A program made the position numbers and the translations under genes. This document shows, piece after piece, positions 393 to 7,330 of a DNA stretch of 13,379 nucleotides. Source of the DNA: an uncultured Blautia sp. (GTDB lineage: Bacteria; Bacillota; Clostridia; Lachnospirales; Lachnospiraceae); the NCBI GenBank assembly GCA_934358405.1, contig CAKRKL010000048.1, positions 1 through 13,379 of the forward strand, read 5' to 3'. The notes below the pieces were generated by a model. The model saw only the letters and a list, made by a program, of their open reading frames with translations. It made no database searches and was not told where the DNA came from. How positions within the stretch are numbered: the first letter of the stretch is position 1; each line of letters opens with the position of its first letter.

Positions 393-1493
393 TCAGCCTC
401 CAAACACCCTTCCGCTCTTTTCTGCCGCCTCAATCAACTGCCCCAGCCGCATATTACAGCTGCCCACAGGCACATCCGTGCAAATAATTCTCTCGCACTG
501 CTCCATCGCATGGAGAGCTTTTTGAAAGGTCTCTTCGGAGATATCCATAAAAGGCTTTTCTGTTATTACATCTGCCGCCAGAAGTCGTGCCAGACGGTAG
601 TCTACATCATTGGTATAAAGAATTCCCGCAACAAACGGCGTATGCTCCTTCTGCAGCTGCCGGAACACAGGAATACCCGTTCCGTTTCCGCAGATCACAA
701 ATGTTTTCGCCTCTCCCTCCGGCTTTGGAAGCTCAATACTTCCAAACAGAGGATCAAAAAAGCCATTGTTAATGTCATACAAATCCCGGATCATATTTTC
801 CTCAAAAATATCCTCCGGCCTTCCGAAATGGGAAATGGTATCTCCTTTTACGCAAATGATCTTATCCGCAATCTTCTGTGCCAGATCGATTTCATGAAGA
901 GACATGATTACTGTAATATGCTTCATTTTTGCCATATCCCGGAGAATGGAAAGCAGATCCAGCTTATGCTTGATATCAAGGAAGGAGGTTGGCTCATCCA
1001 GGATAATAATATCCGGCTCCTGGCAGATGGCACGGGCAAGCAGAACACGCTGCCGCTGTCCGTCACTGATATTGTTAAAATCACGGCCTCCAAGCTCCTG
1101 GGCATGTACTGCACGCATGGCCTCTTCTACCTTTTCCTCATCCTCTCTTGTAAGAAGACCAAGCCGTCCTGTATAAGGATAGCGTCCTGTTGCCACAATA
1201 TCATGGCAGGTCATCAGCTCCGGCTTCATACGCTCTGTGAGAACCACCGCCATACGGGTGGAAAGATCCCTAAAAGAAAAGGAGGTGAGATTCTGGTCGT
1301 CAAAGTAAACCTTTCCGCCAATAATCTGCAGCTGACGGGTGATACTTTTTAAAATTGTAGATTTACCGGAGCCATTTGGTCCGATCAGGGTCACAATTTC
1401 TCCTTTTTTGATGCCAATACAGATATCGTGGATCAGTGCTTTTTTGTTGTATCCTACGGACAGATGGTCCATTTTAAAATAGTAATTTTCCAT
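393..1493 (-). CDS. btuD: ABC transporter ATPase of the cobalamin/iron-siderophore (BtuD/FecE) type, with C-terminal extension
   Basis: This 366-residue cytoplasmic ATPase would power the importer encoded with it. Visible motifs are Walker A GPNGSGKST (38-46), the signature ISDGQ (142-146, in place of LSGGQ), Walker B IIILDEP (162-168), the D-loop SFLD (170-173) and the switch His200. The Q-loop position reads VVLTE, so the usual Gln appears to be Thr86. After about residue 255 comes an extra domain of some 110 residues with a GNGTGIP turn and a nucleotide-fold look. I recall such tails on some Firmicutes ATPases of this family but know no proven function. The gene starts 2 bp after the permease stop and has GAGG about 9 bases before the ATG, so the two are translated together. 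Cobalamin as substrate is inferred from the riboswitch ahead of the operon; the ATPase alone could equally serve siderophores or heme. Confidence 0.87.
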   Translation of the reverse strand: MENYYFKMDHLSVGYNKKALIHDICIGIKKGEIVTLIGPNGSGKSTILKSITRQLQIIGGKVYFDDQNLTSFSFRDLSTRMAVVLTERMKPELMTCHDIVATGRYPYTGRLGLLTREDEEKVEEAMRAVHAQELGGRDFNNISDGQRQRVLLARAICQEPDIIILDEPTSFLDIKHKLDLLSILRDMAKMKHITVIMSLHEIDLAQKIADKIICVKGDTISHFGRPEDIFEENMIRDLYDINNGFFDPLFGSIELPKPEGEAKTFVICGNGTGIPVFRQLQKEHTPFVAGILYTNDVDYRLARLLAADVITEKPFMDISEETFQKALHAMEQCERIICTDVPVGSCNMRLGQLIEAAEKSGRVFGG

Positions 1494-1495
1494 CT

Positions 1496-2548
1496 TTAGT
1501 TTCCTCTCTTTTTACGCAGCATCATAAAAATAACTACCGGTGCACCAAATATGGAGGTGACAGTACTGATATTCAGCTCCAGCGGCGCAAATGCCATTCT
1601 GGCGATCAGGTCACACATCATACAGAAAACAGCTCCTCCAAGAAAGGTTCCCGGGATAATAATAAGTGGTCTTGATGTGTTAAAGCTTCTTTTCATCAGG
1701 AAGGGAACTGCGATTCCAACAAAGGAAATCGGTCCGGCAAAAGCAGTTACAGTTGCAGACAAAATGCTGGAAAGCAGGATCAGGGCAACACGGAAGAAGC
1801 GGATATTTACTCCCATGCTCTGGGCATATGCCTCTCCAAGCTGATAAGCACCTATGGGCTTTGACAGAAGGAAGGTCAGAAGCAAGGTAATTCCGATCAC
1901 CACAAAGGAAATATATACGTTGCTCCAGCTCATACCGGAAAAGCTTCCCTGAGACCAGCCGTGAAGATTGACAATATCAGAATCATCTGCAAAGGTAACT
2001 ACAAAGTCTGTCACTGCAGAGCAAATATAGCCGATCATAATTCCGGCAACCAGAAGGGTAGCCATATGCTTGATCCTTTTTGAAATCAAAAGGATAAATC
2101 CAATTGAAATCAAAGAACCGATAAAGGCTGCAATGATCAGGGTATAAGAAGTAACACTTGCTGCTCTTCCAAGATAATAGATCATGGTAAGAGCTACTAC
2201 CATTTTTGCACCGGAGGAAATACCAAGTACAAATGGTCCGGCAATTGGATTTTCGAAAAAGGTCTGCAGCAAAAAACCGGATAAGGATAAAGCGCCGCCC
2301 AAAATTGCTGCCATCAGGATTCGGGGCAGACGGATCTTCCAGATAATGCTGTATTCTTTTGTATCTGTCACTTTTTTCAAAAGAATGTCTGCGATTTCTG
2401 ACAGGGAAATATGGACATTACCGGTATTGATATTCAGCACGGTGATCACGCAAAATGCCAGGATCAAAAGAATAAACACCAGGGCGTAGCGGGATCTTCT
2501 TTTGAAATTTTCCATATGGAAGCTGGTTCCATCAGGTTGTTTACTCAT
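1496..2548 (-). CDS. btuC: FecCD/BtuC-family ABC transporter permease
   Basis: A 350-residue integral membrane protein of the FecCD family, which forms the translocation channel as a dimer and usually has about ten transmembrane helices. The first helix is at about 20-40. The family segment RLPRILMAAILGGALSLSGF starts at 73 and continues into NPIAGPFVLGISSGA (100-114). The GPISFVG loop follows at about 272-278, and ELNISTVTSIFGAP near 324-337 precedes the last helix. The common GLVVPH after that loop reads GIAVPF here, so the frequent His is absent. The N-terminus is hydrophilic for about 18 residues. I keep the first ATG because GGAG lies about 10 bases upstream; Met12 has no good ribosome binding site. 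It follows the binding-protein gene after 67 bp containing a hairpin and is almost fused to the ATPase gene. Confidence 0.9.
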   Translation of the reverse strand: MSKQPDGTSFHMENFKRRSRYALVFILLILAFCVITVLNINTGNVHISLSEIADILLKKVTDTKEYSIIWKIRLPRILMAAILGGALSLSGFLLQTFFENPIAGPFVLGISSGAKMVVALTMIYYLGRAASVTSYTLIIAAFIGSLISIGFILLISKRIKHMATLLVAGIMIGYICSAVTDFVVTFADDSDIVNLHGWSQGSFSGMSWSNVYISFVVIGITLLLTFLLSKPIGAYQLGEAYAQSMGVNIRFFRVALILLSSILSATVTAFAGPISFVGIAVPFLMKRSFNTSRPLIIIPGTFLGGAVFCMMCDLIARMAFAPLELNISTVTSIFGAPVVIFMMLRKKRGN

Positions 2549-2582
2549 TTTAGGTTTACTCCATTTGTGTTTTATTAAGGGA

Positions 2583-2610
2583 AAGCGGACTACTTTAAAG
2601 AAGTCCGCTT
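2583..2610 (-). other. Intercistronic stem-loop between binding protein and permease genes
   Basis: A perfect 9-bp stem AAGCGGACT / AGTCCGCTT encloses a 10-base loop in the 67-bp gap, 5 bases after the binding-protein stop codon (stop at 2616-2618). On the minus strand the stem is followed by TCCCTTAATAAAA, not a clean T-run. I therefore read it as a weak or partial terminator, or an mRNA-stabilising hairpin, that would give more binding protein than membrane components. Confidence 0.7.
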
Positions 2611-2615
2611 AGAAA

Positions 2616-3809
2616 TCAGTTTAATCTATGCAGGAAGGTCATATCCTCCTCGCTGCCGCCTGTGAACATCAGATTGAAATCATTGATCAGCTCGCCGATG
2701 GTATCCGTGTGCTGATACATGGAATTATCTGTGATCCATACATTGCCATCTTTTACTGCCTTGAAATCTGCCAGAAGACTGTCCTTGGCAAGAAGATCGT
2801 CAAGGCTTTTCACAGAGGCATCAATGCTGGAATTGTAAATAAGATAATCTGCATCAACGGCAGTGTTGTAAAACTCTTCCATTGTAATGGATACGGAGGT
2901 TTTGCCGCTATCGTCCTGAAGGTCAGAAAACGCATTTCGACCGCCTGCAATATCGATCATACTGGAAATGTAATCCTTCGGATTACGTACAACTGGTGCA
3001 CCGCTGGTGTTGATATAGAAAAATGCAACGGTTTTCTCTGTGTTTTTGAAATCCTTTAATTTCTCAATGATCTGTGCCTGGCTGTCAAAGAAGGCATCTG
3101 CCTCCTCTTCCTTATTCATCAATGCACCATAAAGCTTAATCCACTCAGTACGTCCAAGAGGCTGACTCTCATAGCTGGAGCGGTCAATAAGTACAGGAAT
3201 CCCAAGAGTTTCGATCATTTCCTGCACCTTTGGCGCATGGAGGATCATAGTAGATTCAATTGCAAGATCACAATCCTCTCCTACCAGAAGCTCATAATCC
3301 GGTTCATCATATTTGCCTGCGAAGGTCATGTCGCCGGAATTAATGGCATCTGCTGCGGACTGGATATACCAGCCGGAAGCGTCCAGTCCGGATAATTTGA
3401 TGGAACCTACCGCACCGATGGCATCAAACAATGCCATTGGGGAAGTAGCTGCCATGTAGATCGTATCCAGTGGCTGATAAAGTACCTGAATACTGTCATC
3501 CAGGCCATCCGGTGCCTCCATTCCTTCCGGTACTACAAGGTACTGTGCATTATCATGGACATCCAGAAGCTTATAGCCATCATTATAGTAATACACATCA
3601 AAGCATTCTGCAAAGGACAGCTCCATGGTGGACTGGTAAGTAAGTCCCGGAAGGTCTGGTGCTGTATGATCAGAGGAAGTGTCCACGGAAGCATCCGTTT
3701 CAGATACTTCCGTATTTTCTTCTGCCCATACAGGAGCTACTGCTGTAAAAGTCATCACAGCTGCTGCAAAAATGCCAAGAATCCGGTATTTCAGCTTTTT
3801 ATCATACAT
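2616..3809 (-). CDS. Secreted BtuF-like substrate-binding protein of the ABC importer
   Basis: A 397-residue extracellular protein that should bind the ligand (probably a corrinoid) and hand it to the permease. I start it at 3809, where AGGAG sits 7 bases before the ATG and a clean signal peptide follows: MYDKKLKYR, a hydrophobic core, then APVWA with cleavage after about Ala29. A longer open frame to 3920 overlaps the upstream gene and would bury that signal. There is no lipobox Cys, unusual for a Gram-positive binding protein. The mature part has two lobes. The first (about 50-210) contains YLVVPEG, TFAGKYDEPDY and CDLAI; a linking helix TEWIKLYGALM (221-231) leads to the second (about 255-397) with DIAGGRNAF and GNVWIT. 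This is the layout of the periplasmic binding fold of the cobalamin/iron class. The first lobe is clearly homologous to the end of the preceding gene product. Confidence 0.85.
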   Translation of the reverse strand: MYDKKLKYRILGIFAAAVMTFTAVAPVWAEENTEVSETDASVDTSSDHTAPDLPGLTYQSTMELSFAECFDVYYYNDGYKLLDVHDNAQYLVVPEGMEAPDGLDDSIQVLYQPLDTIYMAATSPMALFDAIGAVGSIKLSGLDASGWYIQSAADAINSGDMTFAGKYDEPDYELLVGEDCDLAIESTMILHAPKVQEMIETLGIPVLIDRSSYESQPLGRTEWIKLYGALMNKEEEADAFFDSQAQIIEKLKDFKNTEKTVAFFYINTSGAPVVRNPKDYISSMIDIAGGRNAFSDLQDDSGKTSVSITMEEFYNTAVDADYLIYNSSIDASVKSLDDLLAKDSLLADFKAVKDGNVWITDNSMYQHTDTIGELINDFNLMFTGGSEEDMTFLHRLN

Positions 3810-3825
3810 AGTTTTCTCCTGTGGC

Positions 3826-6800
3826 TTATGCCTCTTCGTCTGTTTCAGTGAAAATTGCCTGGTATGCTTTTGTCCATTCTGCTTTTGCATCCTCATCCTC
3901 TTCGTCTGCAGAGCGGTCAATAATAAACGGAATCTTCAGGGTTGCATACTTTGCTGCCATATCCTTCAGTGCTTCCAGCTTTTCTTCTGTTTCGGTTTCT
4001 TCTGCCGGAAGAATATCGGATGGAAGGATGGCAAGATTGCACTGGCTCTTAACAAGCTCTTTATAATCGGTGTCATCGTATTTGCCTGCAAAGGATACAG
4101 AGCCATCCTCTAATGCTGCAGTGAGGCTGTCAGAGGTTACCTCGTCTTTTTCCAGGCCAAGGCTGGTGATCTTGTCAGTAAGACCAAGCTCATCCAGGAG
4201 GTTAAGGGCGCCCTCAGATGCAACGTAAACGCTTTCAACCGGTTTTTGGATCAGGATTACGTCTTTATCAAGACCTGCAGGGATCACTGCACCTTCCGGC
4301 ACGATCAGGTATTTGACAACATTGCCTGTGTAAAGCTTCTCAGAAGCAGATGCATCTTTATCTTCTGCCGCTGCAACTTCCTTAGAATCTGCAGTTTCCG
4401 GTTTTCTTGCAGTGTCTGCGGTCATGTCAACCTCAAACAGGGTGATGCCTTTTGCATAGTTATACAGTTTAAAGTATTTTGCATGCTCAAGCTTGGTTTC
4501 ATCCTTGTACTCAAGGCCTGTAATCTCCGGTGCACTTTCATCCAGCTTCTTGTTTCCTGTGGAAAGCATACTGTTCTCATCTGCCGGATTTTCCTTGTCT
4601 GTTTTTTTCGGATCGCTTGCACCCTTTAATGCAGCATAAATGGTGTAAGTAATCTCATGGGCCTGAGACATTCTGGTGGTCATACCGATGATGGTATTGT
4701 TCTGGTTTAATGCAATCGGAATAGTAAAGGTGGAGGTACCGCCTCCGCAGGATCCGTAATAGGTGTTGCCGTTTGCCTTTACATATCCGTAATATTCACT
4801 GCTGAATACAATTGTTGCATAGGCTTTTCCGCCGGTTACAGTAATCTTATTACAGGAAATACTTACCTTACCGGTACCGCCTGACCAGGAGAAGCTGTCT
4901 GGTGTGTAGGTTCCGTCTGCCAGTGTGGTGGAGCTGTTTACAGAGGAGGTTCCTCCGCTAAGATCAGAGTCATATTTGGACTCCTTATCCGGTTCCGGAT
5001 TTGGTGTTGGTGTAGCAGTAACAGCTGCTGTTGGAGTTGGTGTAGGAGTACCTGTCAGTTCAACGGATGGTGTCGCAGTCGGTGCCGGAGTTGTGTCTGG
5101 TTTCTGAGTGTCATCCTTGATATCACCGATCTTATTTAAGGTAGCTGACTCAAAGGTCAGGGTTCTGTCATACCAGGTCTGTCTTTTGTGAGAAAATGCA
5201 GCAATTGAAAGTCCCTGATCAAGAGATTCCACCGGAATTTCATAAGTATATTTACCATCAGCATTTACAGTATATGGAATCCATTTGGAGGAATCTGCTT
5301 TTGCTGCCTGCTCACCGGTTCCTGCAAAGAGGTAATCATAGCCTGTGCCGCTTAAGGTAAGAACTGCTGTCATTTTTCCGTTTTTGGAGGTAAGGGTACA
5401 GCCTACTACTCGGAACATGGAGGAGCTGGAAGTTACATCCACATTATAGATTCCGTTCTCACATACACCGGATGGAACCTTAGTTGGCTCCGGTGCAGCT
5501 GTTGGAACAGGGGTTTCGCTTGGCTGCGGAGTCTCGCTTGGACTCGGAGCTTCACTTGGCTGCGGAGCTTCTGTCGGAGCCGGAGTTTCGCTTGGAGTTG
5601 GAGCTTCTGTAGGATCTGGAGTCTCACTTGGATTCGGAGCTTCGCTTGGCTGCGGAGTCTGTGTTGGTACCGGAGTTACCTCTGGCTGCTCACCGTATCC
5701 GGGAACTGCCGGGATTGTAATGGAAAGAATTCCCTTGCTATACCAGTTCTGACTTTTTTTGGAGTGCGGAACTACAGAAACTGTCTGTGTTTCCTTGCTT
5801 GCCGGAATCTCAAAGGTATATGTATAGCCTCCGGCTTCATTCTCAGCACCACGGATTGCCTGCTCTTCTTTGTTGTCGTCACTTGCACTGCCAAAATAGA
5901 TCATATCATAGTTCTGTTTCGCTGTGGAAAGGGTAACTGTATATTTGTCACCGTTTAATTTTACAGTAGAACCGGTGATAACGAACATGGCAAATTCATT
6001 TCCGTCTTCTTTTACCAGCTTAATACCGGCATCCTTAATCTCATTAACTGAGGAGTCCGGTGACTGTGTTGGTTCCGGAGTCAGTGTTGGCTGTGGAGCT
6101 TCTGTTGCTTCCGGAGTCTGGGTTGGTGCCGGAGCTTCTGTGGCCTCCGGAGCCTGGGTTGGAGCCGGGGCTTTCATGCCCGGAACATTCAGCTTCAGAT
6201 CCTGAGTGATGTACCAGGAGTTCTTTTTGGTAGAGTGCGGAACCAGATAAATGGTCTGTGCCTGCTCACTTGCCGGAACCTCAAAAACAAAGGTATATCC
6301 AGTTTCTGTTTCCACTCCCTGGATTGCATTTGCATCCATTTCAGATGTGGCATCTTCTTTATGGCCAATGTAAAGCTTGTTATAGTTTTTTCCGGAGGAG
6401 GTCAGTGTTACTTTGATCTTATCTCCCTTTAATTCAGCAGAAGAGCTTGCGATAAGAAACATTTTGTAGGCAGTATCATCTGCCTTATCAATGGTCATAT
6501 TAGAACCATCTTCCTTCAGATCATCCACCTGTGTGTATGCTTCGACTTCATTGCCTGCAGCAGCTTCTGTCGCCGGAGCCTGTGTAACTGCAACCTCTTC
6601 CTTACTATCTTCAGGCTGTGAGGAGGTTTCTTCCTTTACAGCTTCATCAGCCTGTGTGGCATCCTCTTCTTTTGCAGCTTCATCAGTTTTGGTGGTATCC
6701 TCTTCTTTTGCAGCTTCATCAGTTTTGGCGGCATCCTCTTTTTTTGCAGCTTCATCAGCTTTGGTGGTATCCTCTTCTTTTACAGCTTCATTCGACTGTG

Positions 6801-6978
6801 TGGTGTGATCCTCTTCTTTGGCATCTTCCCCATCAGTCCTTGAAGCTTCTTCTGCTGCCGGAGTTAAGGTGAGCTGTACACCTGCTTCCTTATCTTCTGC
6901 CTGTGTAAGCACTGCAGGAGAAATAGTCATTGCTACAGAAAGAAACAATGCCAGAAAACGTTTTGAATTTCTTTTCAT
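3826..6978 (-). CDS. Large secreted modular protein: acidic repeats, four beta-rich modules, C-terminal half binding-protein lobe
   Basis: A 1050-residue exported protein, first gene behind the cobalamin riboswitch. The start is supported by GAGGG upstream and a signal peptide ending near LTQA (about 27). Residues 45-130 are a Glu/Lys/Ala/Thr repeat of 12 residues. Four modules follow at about 158-267, 313-424, 506-612 and 685-785. The first three share an MF[LVR] start, a GDK/GKM turn, a Tyr-rich strand and an S..K...WY ending; the fourth is more divergent. Proline-rich PxPTEAP-type linkers separate them. Residues 815-1050 match the first lobe of the next gene's binding protein (YLIVPEG, SFAGKYDDTDY, CNLAI, IPFIIDRS, AEWTKAYQAIF) and stop where the second lobe would begin. 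No LPXTG or membrane anchor is visible. The operon and riboswitch suggest corrinoid capture at the cell surface. I have no name for it, and ligand binding by the modules is inference. Confidence 0.88.
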   Translation of the reverse strand: MKRNSKRFLALFLSVAMTISPAVLTQAEDKEAGVQLTLTPAAEEASRTDGEDAKEEDHTTQSNEAVKEEDTTKADEAAKKEDAAKTDEAAKEEDTTKTDEAAKEEDATQADEAVKEETSSQPEDSKEEVAVTQAPATEAAAGNEVEAYTQVDDLKEDGSNMTIDKADDTAYKMFLIASSSAELKGDKIKVTLTSSGKNYNKLYIGHKEDATSEMDANAIQGVETETGYTFVFEVPASEQAQTIYLVPHSTKKNSWYITQDLKLNVPGMKAPAPTQAPEATEAPAPTQTPEATEAPQPTLTPEPTQSPDSSVNEIKDAGIKLVKEDGNEFAMFVITGSTVKLNGDKYTVTLSTAKQNYDMIYFGSASDDNKEEQAIRGAENEAGGYTYTFEIPASKETQTVSVVPHSKKSQNWYSKGILSITIPAVPGYGEQPEVTPVPTQTPQPSEAPNPSETPDPTEAPTPSETPAPTEAPQPSEAPSPSETPQPSETPVPTAAPEPTKVPSGVCENGIYNVDVTSSSSMFRVVGCTLTSKNGKMTAVLTLSGTGYDYLFAGTGEQAAKADSSKWIPYTVNADGKYTYEIPVESLDQGLSIAAFSHKRQTWYDRTLTFESATLNKIGDIKDDTQKPDTTPAPTATPSVELTGTPTPTPTAAVTATPTPNPEPDKESKYDSDLSGGTSSVNSSTTLADGTYTPDSFSWSGGTGKVSISCNKITVTGGKAYATIVFSSEYYGYVKANGNTYYGSCGGGTSTFTIPIALNQNNTIIGMTTRMSQAHEITYTIYAALKGASDPKKTDKENPADENSMLSTGNKKLDESAPEITGLEYKDETKLEHAKYFKLYNYAKGITLFEVDMTADTARKPETADSKEVAAAEDKDASASEKLYTGNVVKYLIVPEGAVIPAGLDKDVILIQKPVESVYVASEGALNLLDELGLTDKITSLGLEKDEVTSDSLTAALEDGSVSFAGKYDDTDYKELVKSQCNLAILPSDILPAEETETEEKLEALKDMAAKYATLKIPFIIDRSADEEDEDAKAEWTKAYQAIFTETDEEA
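4987..5100 (-). repeat. Third Pro/Thr-rich linker-coding segment
   Basis: Codes for residues about 627-664 of the large secreted protein, with PTPTPT and TATPTPNPEP runs. It separates the third and fourth modules. The repeats are short and impure. Confidence 0.7.
5473..5688 (-). repeat. Proline-rich tandem repeat, second linker of the large secreted protein
   Basis: Codes for residues about 431-502, a run of P-x-P-[ST]-E-[AT] units with an 18-base period that varies slightly between copies. It joins the second and third modules. Such extended linkers commonly act as flexible stalks spanning the cell wall. The repeated DNA makes copy number prone to change by slippage. Confidence 0.85.
6058..6171 (-). 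repeat. First Pro/Thr/Glu-rich linker repeat
   Basis: Codes for residues about 270-307, with repeated PTQAPEATEAP-like units between the first and second modules. It is similar in composition to the longer linker at 5473-5688. Confidence 0.75.
6625..6813 (-). repeat. 36-bp tandem repeat coding an acidic 12-residue unit
   Basis: About five copies of a 36-base unit coding for EEDTTK[TA]DEAAK-like residues (about 56-118 of the large protein). The central copies are nearly identical in DNA, which points to recent tandem duplication. The peptide is highly charged and probably helical or disordered, forming a spacer between the signal peptide and the first module. Confidence 0.87.
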
Positions 6979-7011: not shown

Positions 7012-7051
7012 TGAATAAATAAAAAATGCCCGCTCCCCTGGGGGAACAGGC
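7012..7051 (-). terminator. Intrinsic terminator of the cobalamin riboswitch
   Basis: On the minus strand a GC-rich hairpin (7028-7051; arms GCCTGTTCCC and GGGAGCGGGC, with two G-T pairs) is followed by ATTTTTTATTT. It lies after the aptamer and about 34 bases before the start codon of the large secreted protein. This is the classic place for a riboswitch expression platform that stops transcription when ligand is bound. Confidence 0.88.
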
Positions 7052-7117
7052 ACAAGAAATCTGATATATTACGCAATTGGAATATACTATTCATGAGAAT
7101 GAAGTGCTTTCCTCGGA

Positions 7118-7285
7118 AGCTTTCATTTACGAATTCAGCAGGTTTCCTGGCTTCAGATCATCACGGAACCTGACCTTCTCAGCAATTACTGCCAATGGCA
7201 TAACCAGATTCCATTCCCTGTGTACAGTGACCGGATCGCTCAGGATTTGCACCTGATTCCCTATGTAAAGGCACTGAAAACGGAT
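7118..7285 (-). promoter_or_regulatory. Cobalamin (B12) riboswitch aptamer
   Basis: Read on the minus strand, the leader contains the two hallmark blocks of cobalamin riboswitches. The 5' block (7223-7261) reads GGGAATCAGGTGCAAATCC, then GAGCGATCCGGTCACTGTA. The 3' B12-box-like block (7134-7154) reads GAAGCCAGGAAACCTGCTGAA, with GATGATC just before it. A closing P1 helix is plausible between TTTAC near 7266-7270 and GTAAA near 7125-7130. The exact ends are approximate. It lies between its own promoter and a terminator, so it most likely turns the downstream uptake genes off when adenosylcobalamin or a related cobalamin is abundant. This is the main evidence that the transporter handles corrinoids and not iron siderophores. 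Confidence 0.93.
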
Positions 7286-7301
7286 TTATTCAATTCATCT
7301 C

Positions 7302-7330
7302 ATTATAGCAGACTGCTTTGTCGAAATCAA
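7302..7330 (-). promoter_or_regulatory. Promoter of the riboswitch-controlled uptake operon
   Basis: A -35 box TTGATT (7325-7330), a 17-base spacer and a perfect -10 box TATAAT (7302-7307) lie just upstream of the aptamer. Transcription would start near 7295, about 10 bases before the riboswitch. The -35 box is only 35 bases after the vanW-family stop codon, so this unit is separate from the histidine operon. Confidence 0.8.

Follow-up and report, generated by a model that had tools for sequence, protein, structure and literature searches.

This study was concerned with a 13,379-nucleotide stretch of DNA from an uncultured Blautia sp. (contig CAKRKL010000048.1 of assembly GCA_934358405.1), referred to here as the window, and with the very large exported protein of 1050 residues, the giant, that it encodes. 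By predicted fold, domain order and riboswitch, the modelled protein is shown to be an array of NEAT domains that lies behind a B12-type riboswitch and ends in half of a substrate-binding protein (SBP). An Isd-like relay repurposed for corrinoids is probably the best explanation of this arrangement, for several reasons. First, 26 of 28 related giant loci with closed 5' ends have a cobalamin riboswitch upstream on the same strand, as do 14 of 18 sampled loci in which a NEAT domain is fused to or neighbours a full SBP, against none of 12 loci with ordinary NEAT domains. Secondly, the giant of locus L032 follows a tetrapyrrole methylase gene, and genes for CbiK-type cobaltochelatases, with signal peptides recognized by eye, occur in some related operons. 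Third, genes for an SBP, a FecCD-type permease and an ATPase follow the giant, its last module stands directly before the half SBP in 33 of 33 loci, and the half SBPs form a clade with support of 1.0. Lastly, the modules have the predicted NEAT fold and match NEATs at the profile level.

NEAT modules of the giant protein

The original prediction, made from the letters of the window, described an exported protein with four related or similar-sized modules on proline-rich stalks. The open reading frame (ORF; 6978-3826, minus strand) agrees with the first part of this description, as a type I signal peptide with an AxA site and Pro/Thr-rich stalks were recognized by eye; no lipobox, LPxTG signal or C-terminal membrane helix was seen in the same inspection. 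The relatedness of the modules was confirmed for modules 1, 2 and 3 by direct alignment (z of 35.9 for 1 and 2, 10.0 for 1 and 3, and 16.5 for 2 and 3). Module 4 appeared unrelated to them by that measure (z of only 0.4 to 2.9) and joined them only at the profile level, with E values of 9e-7 to module 3 and 9e-6 to modules 1/2. The modules 1/2 profile matched module 3 with an E value of 9e-26, which is improved by some module-3-like members in its set.

When predicted folds were compared with known structures, the modules adopted the NEAT immunoglobulin (Ig)-like fold, with matches to structures from the Isd/IsdX group. Profile matches to clostridial NEATs had E values of 3.3e-6 for module 3, 1.9e-5 for module 4 and 2.3e-3 for modules 1/2, and the half SBP, used as a control, gave 0.68; the ordinary NEAT profile was built from 15 of 20 fetched loci (L077, L078, L081, L085 and L086 were left out). 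The original prediction had proposed Pfam and structure searches of the modules, and NEAT was reached by fold comparison and not by Pfam. PF05031 (NEAT) did not match the window protein, which stayed below the curated cut-off of 32.8 bits; at E<=0.1 it matched 3 of 27 giants, and near-misses below the cut-off were P0121 (26.9 bits), L015 (28.6), L057 (31.6) and L066 (30.5). Sequence profiles of the modules and the half SBP likewise gave no NEAT or SBP match in the PDB, and only fold comparison gave these.

The Ig-like folds on Pro/Thr stalks, together with lower-ranked fold matches to an adhesin and to carbohydrate-active proteins, would also suit an adhesin or carbohydrate-binding protein that sits in a B12 operon by chance, which we regard as highly improbable. 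An adhesin or carbohydrate-binding identity of the modules was rejected on the NEAT fold matches; by fold they belong to a tetrapyrrole- and metal-linked family, consistent with the original prediction.

His774 opens the last strand of module 4 in the predicted structure, and Tyr778 stands four residues on. We take this to be the place of the YxxxY site of haem NEATs. The YxxxY motif itself is described in PMC4143258. H774 and Y778 were each kept in 34 of 35 aligned module 4 domains and M770 and T767 in all 35, and in module 3 W602 was present in 29 of 29 aligned domains and Y603 in 27 of 29. The haem-type YxxxY was not found in strand 8 of either module, where module 4 has HxxxY and module 3 has WYDR. 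In 20 further loci HxxxY occurred once per locus, in 20 of 39 matches to the module 4 hidden Markov model (HMM); the other 19 matches were, by eye, segments of the module 1/2/3 type, mostly WYD[RH]. With small variations, TTxMSxxHxIxY would be a simple signature of the proposed B12-linked branch. None of the 15 ordinary NEATs sampled had HxxxY or YxxxY within the last 50 residues; thus the ordinary NEATs sampled here are also not of the classic YxxxY type. The model suggests that His774 and Tyr778 occupy the metal-ligand position of haem NEATs, and we infer that His774 binds cobalt.

The lone lobe

The C-terminal domain matches only the first lobe of the adjacent SBP, as originally proposed. 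Residues 811-1050 align to SBP residues 47-236 with a BLOSUM62 score of 274, where 300 shuffles reached no more than 61, and the motifs YLxVPEG, FAGKYDxxDY, CxLAI, IDRS and EWxKxY occur in the same order. Predicted-fold comparison indicated that the lobe keeps the N-lobe fold of a class III SBP; the second lobe, which forms the cleft, is missing, and the giant ends after the EWxKxY helix. At E<=0.1, PF01497 matched 8 of 27 giants (best 9.1e-8) and did not match the window giant. The domain is a true lone N-lobe, as the original prediction had it, but not a free-standing one, as module 4 and the lobe form one predicted rigid unit (predicted template modelling score, pTM, 0.84). The order, NEAT before SBP, is that of the NEAT-SBP fusions of other loci.

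The half SBP is a relative of the full SBP and its immediate upstream neighbour, as a recent broken copy produced by decay or an assembly artefact would be. This explanation has next to no likelihood and is already contradicted, as the lobe is present in 33 of 33 loci, lobes share on average 33% identity with their own genome's SBP and 32% with SBPs from other genomes, and lobes form one clade apart from the sampled SBPs. Recent duplication or decay of the neighbouring SBP was ruled out by this distinct clade. The SBP side of the split had support of 0.417 after midpoint rooting in the first tree and 0.924 in a second tree, which left out one SBP (L064) that has no anchor motif. The tree gave no resolution on an origin of the lobe from a NEAT-SBP fusion.

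Conservation was at least 80% in both lobes and SBPs at 26 alignment columns. A further 48 columns, at least 90% conserved in SBPs, show no such conservation in lobes; among them are those of the HxPKVxEMIE stretch, at which lobes carry an acidic insert of variable length. With many SBP-specific conserved residues lost, the lone lobe has probably given up ligand binding in the manner of an SBP. The most likely role of the lobe is that of a fixed partner for module 4, in which it acts as a dock or preserves the NEAT-SBP contact in frozen form. A lesser possibility is that the lobe docks on the permease or anchors there in competition with the full SBP and thereby tethers the array. The retained N-lobe fold, the 26 shared columns and the lack of any other anchor seen on the giant speak for such a tether, whereas the loss of the 48 SBP columns, with HxPKVxEMIE among them, speaks against it; it is compatible with corrinoid capture and differs on the role of the lobe.

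Among the SBPs of 32 operons, 20 had a lipobox by pattern, and those of L011, L012 and L018 were added by eye. The nine SBPs without a lipobox (window, L001, L002, L003, L006, L009, L013, L017 and L019) are unusual for a Gram-positive importer.

Related giant loci

Of 6018 candidates, 1692 proteins matched the lobe region at E<=1e-3. The 33 giant loci were found with an alignment search of genome contigs, and a single-protein search gave none; alignments A2, A3, A4 and A5 took in 26, 28, 31 and 31 of these loci, each with the window added. Hosts were Blautia, Coprococcus, Fusicatenibacter, Faecalicatena, Dorea, Oliverpabstia and others, many labelled only Lachnospiraceae or Clostridia. Module 4 stood directly before the C-terminal lobe in every locus, including L026, where a contig end cuts the lobe, and L033, where the giant frame is broken within the lobe (L033:5501-8363; frames of 658 and 314 aa) by mutation or assembly error. 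One to seven modules of the 1/2/3 type preceded module 4 in the 28 loci with a closed 5' end, and L010 had a second module-4-type domain. Downstream of the giant, 32 of 33 loci have an SBP (that of L014 is partial), 30 have FecCD and 29 the ATPase, and the gaps were contig ends except in L020. The array, the half SBP, the full importer and the B12-type riboswitch are conserved as a set.

Relatives consistently outside B12-regulated operons would have spoken against the original prediction, and the riboswitch counts given above show the contrary. The distance from riboswitch to giant was 45-400 nt in 19 loci, and genes intervened in seven. In L002, L003 and L006 these encode exported-looking proteins with Ig-like repeats (Pfam was run on L003 only), and in L013, L014 and L017 they encode CbiK and a small module (Pfam was run on L013 only). 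In L018 a 1595-aa Big_2 protein (L018:674-5461) with a sortase-like C-terminal tail, recognized by eye, lies between riboswitch and giant. The two loci without a riboswitch were L020 and L032. The contig of L032 begins 825 nt before the giant, and the methylase gene directly upstream (corrin/porphyrin type; PF00590, E 1.8e-45) is CobI/CbiL-like by eye. L020 is an orphan pair of giant and SBP with no riboswitch, permease or ATPase within 15 kb, and Rfam gave no riboswitch in its positions 2500-5100 even when the threshold was relaxed. L016:11963-12137, L013:13204-13342 and L017:13722-13915 are additional cobalamin riboswitches that lie downstream or on the opposite strand. In P0109, a 725-aa protein that may be an assembly chimera, Pfam domains of the iron-dependent alcohol dehydrogenase type are joined to module 4 and the lobe.

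The wider B12-linked branch and ordinary NEATs

A survey covered 200 genomes of the family to which one relative belongs; four of these genomes were already in the set of relatives. The profile of module 4 and lobe matched at least 77 of the 200 at E<=1e-10, and at least 15 of those had a long single protein spanning module 4 and lobe at >300 bits. In many other surveyed genomes a full SBP had a module-4 NEAT fused to it or encoded next to it; from these, 18 loci (13 fusions and 5 neighbours) were chosen as a selection and not the full set. A permease of the same kind was present in 15 of the 18 and an ATPase in 13; the four without a riboswitch on the correct strand upstream were L051, L052, L062 and L063, the last a cut contig of 3.7 kb. 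L050, L054 and L059 have no separate module 4 match after overlap resolution because the SBP profile took the stretch, and each has a module 4 HMM match with the HxxxY segment. A second NEAT-like protein, of 1441 aa with Big_2 domains and its own cobalamin riboswitch upstream, was seen at L048:1387-5712 in a Blautia glucerasea genome.

Among 196 genomes of the order, 11 have ordinary NEATs above the Pfam cut-off; one genome, G029, has both these and the B12-linked kind. No cobalamin riboswitch was found in the 12 ordinary NEAT loci (5.4 to 14.5 kb each, 130.7 kb in total), and 8 of them have an importer-type SBP, permease or ATPase gene nearby. The comparison of 40 riboswitches in 46 B12-branch loci with 0 in 12 gives a Fisher P of 2e-8, which is not a strict probability, as related genomes are counted and some loci come from the same assembly. 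Chance placement of the riboswitch near the giant was ruled out by the counts in giant, NEAT-SBP and ordinary NEAT loci.

The array might instead capture another tetrapyrrole (haem, sirohydrochlorin or cobalt-porphyrin) as B12 feedstock, with the exported CbiK of some relatives inserting or exchanging cobalt. CbiK-type genes, with signal peptides by eye, were seen at L013:1219-2565, L014:2966-4312, L017:1796-3031, L052:1625-3226, L054:1638-3350 and in L046/L049; PF06180 (CbiK) matched those of L013 (E 2.7e-71), L052 and L054, and the others were assigned by eye. CbiK follows a cobalamin riboswitch in L013, L014, L017 and L054 and shares one protein with a NEAT-like domain in L052 and L054, and no riboswitch was found in L052 or in 3.3 kb of L046. 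These genes, the use of the NEAT fold for haem, and Lmo2184, which the SBP family profile matches best among PDB sequences, favour another tetrapyrrole. However, CbiK is absent between riboswitch and giant (the interval searched) in the window and in 23 of 26 riboswitch loci, ordinary NEAT loci have no riboswitch, and module 4 has HxxxY instead of YxxxY. We therefore consider this alternative rather unlikely.

Locus layout and control elements

All genes discussed in the window are on the minus strand (Table 1). The original prediction placed the giant under riboswitch control, and a covariance-model search of the window found the cobalamin aptamer well above the RF00174 gathering score of 31.5 bits. 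The terminator behind it (-22.4 kcal/mol, z -4.1, with 0 of 200 shuffles as stable) is likely the expression platform; because so strong a terminator follows a cobalamin aptamer, transcription attenuation by B12 is the likely control. The SBP matches PF01497 (E 7.9e-42), and its start was placed at ATG 3809 rather than TTG 3920 of the ORF list. The corrinoid ABC (ATP-binding cassette) ATPase model covers ATPase residues 7-344 at 193.4 bits. Scores remained below the NCBIfam equivalog cut-offs for a BtuCDF-type importer (BtuC, 208.9 of 334; corrinoid ATPase, 193.4 of 537), and it is from the riboswitch and neighbouring genes only that we infer a corrinoid as the cargo. Upstream of the giant, by eye, are what we take to be a VanW-type gene and a histidine-biosynthesis set.

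Table 1. Features of the window discussed in the text.
Feature	Position	Strand	Details
Promoter-like site TTGATT-17-TATAAT, TG before second hexamer	7302..7330	-	Consensus match only; 2 found vs 1.1 expected in shuffles
Cobalamin riboswitch aptamer (RF00174)	7120..7293	-	90.3 bits, E 1e-21, model 1-189 complete
Intrinsic terminator, between aptamer and giant gene	7026..7053	-	12-bp stem, then T run
Giant exported NEAT-array protein, 1050 aa	3826..6978	-	ORF
NEAT-like module 1, residues 164-266	6181..6489	-	HMM annotation
NEAT-like module 2, residues 322-423	5710..6015	-	Alignment and HMM annotation
NEAT module 3, residues 512-609	5152..5445	-	W602-Y603-D-R motif near end
NEAT module 4, residues 685-787	4618..4926	-	H774xxxY778
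Lone N-lobe of class III SBP, residues 811-1050	3829..4548	-	
Full SBP (Peripla_BP_2), 397 aa	2616..3809	-	Signal peptide without lipobox
FecCD-type permease	1496..2548	-	E 1.3e-76; best NCBIfam match BtuC, 208.9 bits
ABC ATPase with C-terminal extension	393..1493	-	Best NCBIfam match FecE, 209.6 bits

Comparison with known systems

The Isd haem relay of Gram-positive bacteria uses the NEAT proteins IsdA/B/C/H, the SBP IsdE and the permease IsdF, and IsdX1 and IsdX2 are secreted hemophores. The window locus resembles it in the NEAT fold, in having several NEATs per protein, and in encoding these with an SBP, a FecCD-type permease and an ATPase; the sortase-like tail seen by eye in L018 is a further likeness in one related operon. 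It differs in the cobalamin riboswitch, the half SBP fused to the array, the lack of a sortase signal on the giant, and modules 3 and 4 without YxxxY, with HxxxY in module 4. Like BtuCDF and corrinoid ABC importers, it has a class III SBP, a FecCD permease, an ATPase related to the corrinoid ATPase family and a cobalamin riboswitch, but it also has a NEAT array and lone lobe in front and does not reach the equivalog scores.

The folds of the Bacteroides proteins BtuG and BtuH differ from NEAT. These surface B12-capture lipoproteins (PMC6143338, PMC8941943) have broadly the same task, to capture B12 at the surface before an importer takes it up, but they are other proteins of an outer-membrane system, whereas the window system is Gram-positive and NEAT-based. 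The clostridial NEAT group of PMC4143258 resembles the window modules in missing YxxxY, and its authors leave an alternate role of these anaerobe NEATs open; the words "cobalamin" and "B12" do not occur in the main text. The ordinary NEATs sampled here differ from the window branch in both HxxxY and the riboswitch. Within the searchable part of open PubMed Central papers (subscription papers are mostly outside this coverage), nothing relevant linked the NEAT domain with a corrinoid or CbiK with NEAT, and broader searches gave no paper on a B12-linked NEAT array among the matches listed.

Proposed mechanism and implications

In the proposed corrinoid relay, a shortage of B12 would let the operon be read through the riboswitch, and the cell would export NEAT domains strung together on Pro/Thr stalks. 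From the regulation, fold and neighbouring genes, the NEATs would catch corrinoids outside the membrane and may pass them along the array to the last one, module 4, with His774 and Tyr778. Through the predicted rigid unit of module 4 and half SBP, the array would reach the importer; this unit would either dock on the SBP or the permease or imitate the complex in which a NEAT hands cargo to an SBP. The ligand would then move to the full SBP and through FecCD and the ATPase. A bolder and unlikely version makes this unit a hybrid corrinoid clamp, in which the NEAT replaces the second lobe, His774 is an axial cobalt ligand, and cargo is handed to the full SBP. If this were true, NEAT would serve tetrapyrroles in general, and one branch of it, spread across Lachnospiraceae, would serve B12.

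The NEAT fold has so far been known for grabbing haem and has been studied in pathogens. To our knowledge, surface B12 capture by Gram-positive gut bacteria is poorly known compared with that of Bacteroides. Gut bacteria of the Blautia type appear to fish for B12-type molecules with a NEAT array. If the corrinoid relay is true, the conserved half SBP would offer a handle on the hand-off of cargo from NEAT to SBP. Common gut commensals would then possess a B12-linked branch of NEAT domains, recognizable by TTxMSxxHxIxY and the riboswitch, and the open role of anaerobe NEATs without YxxxY would become directly testable.
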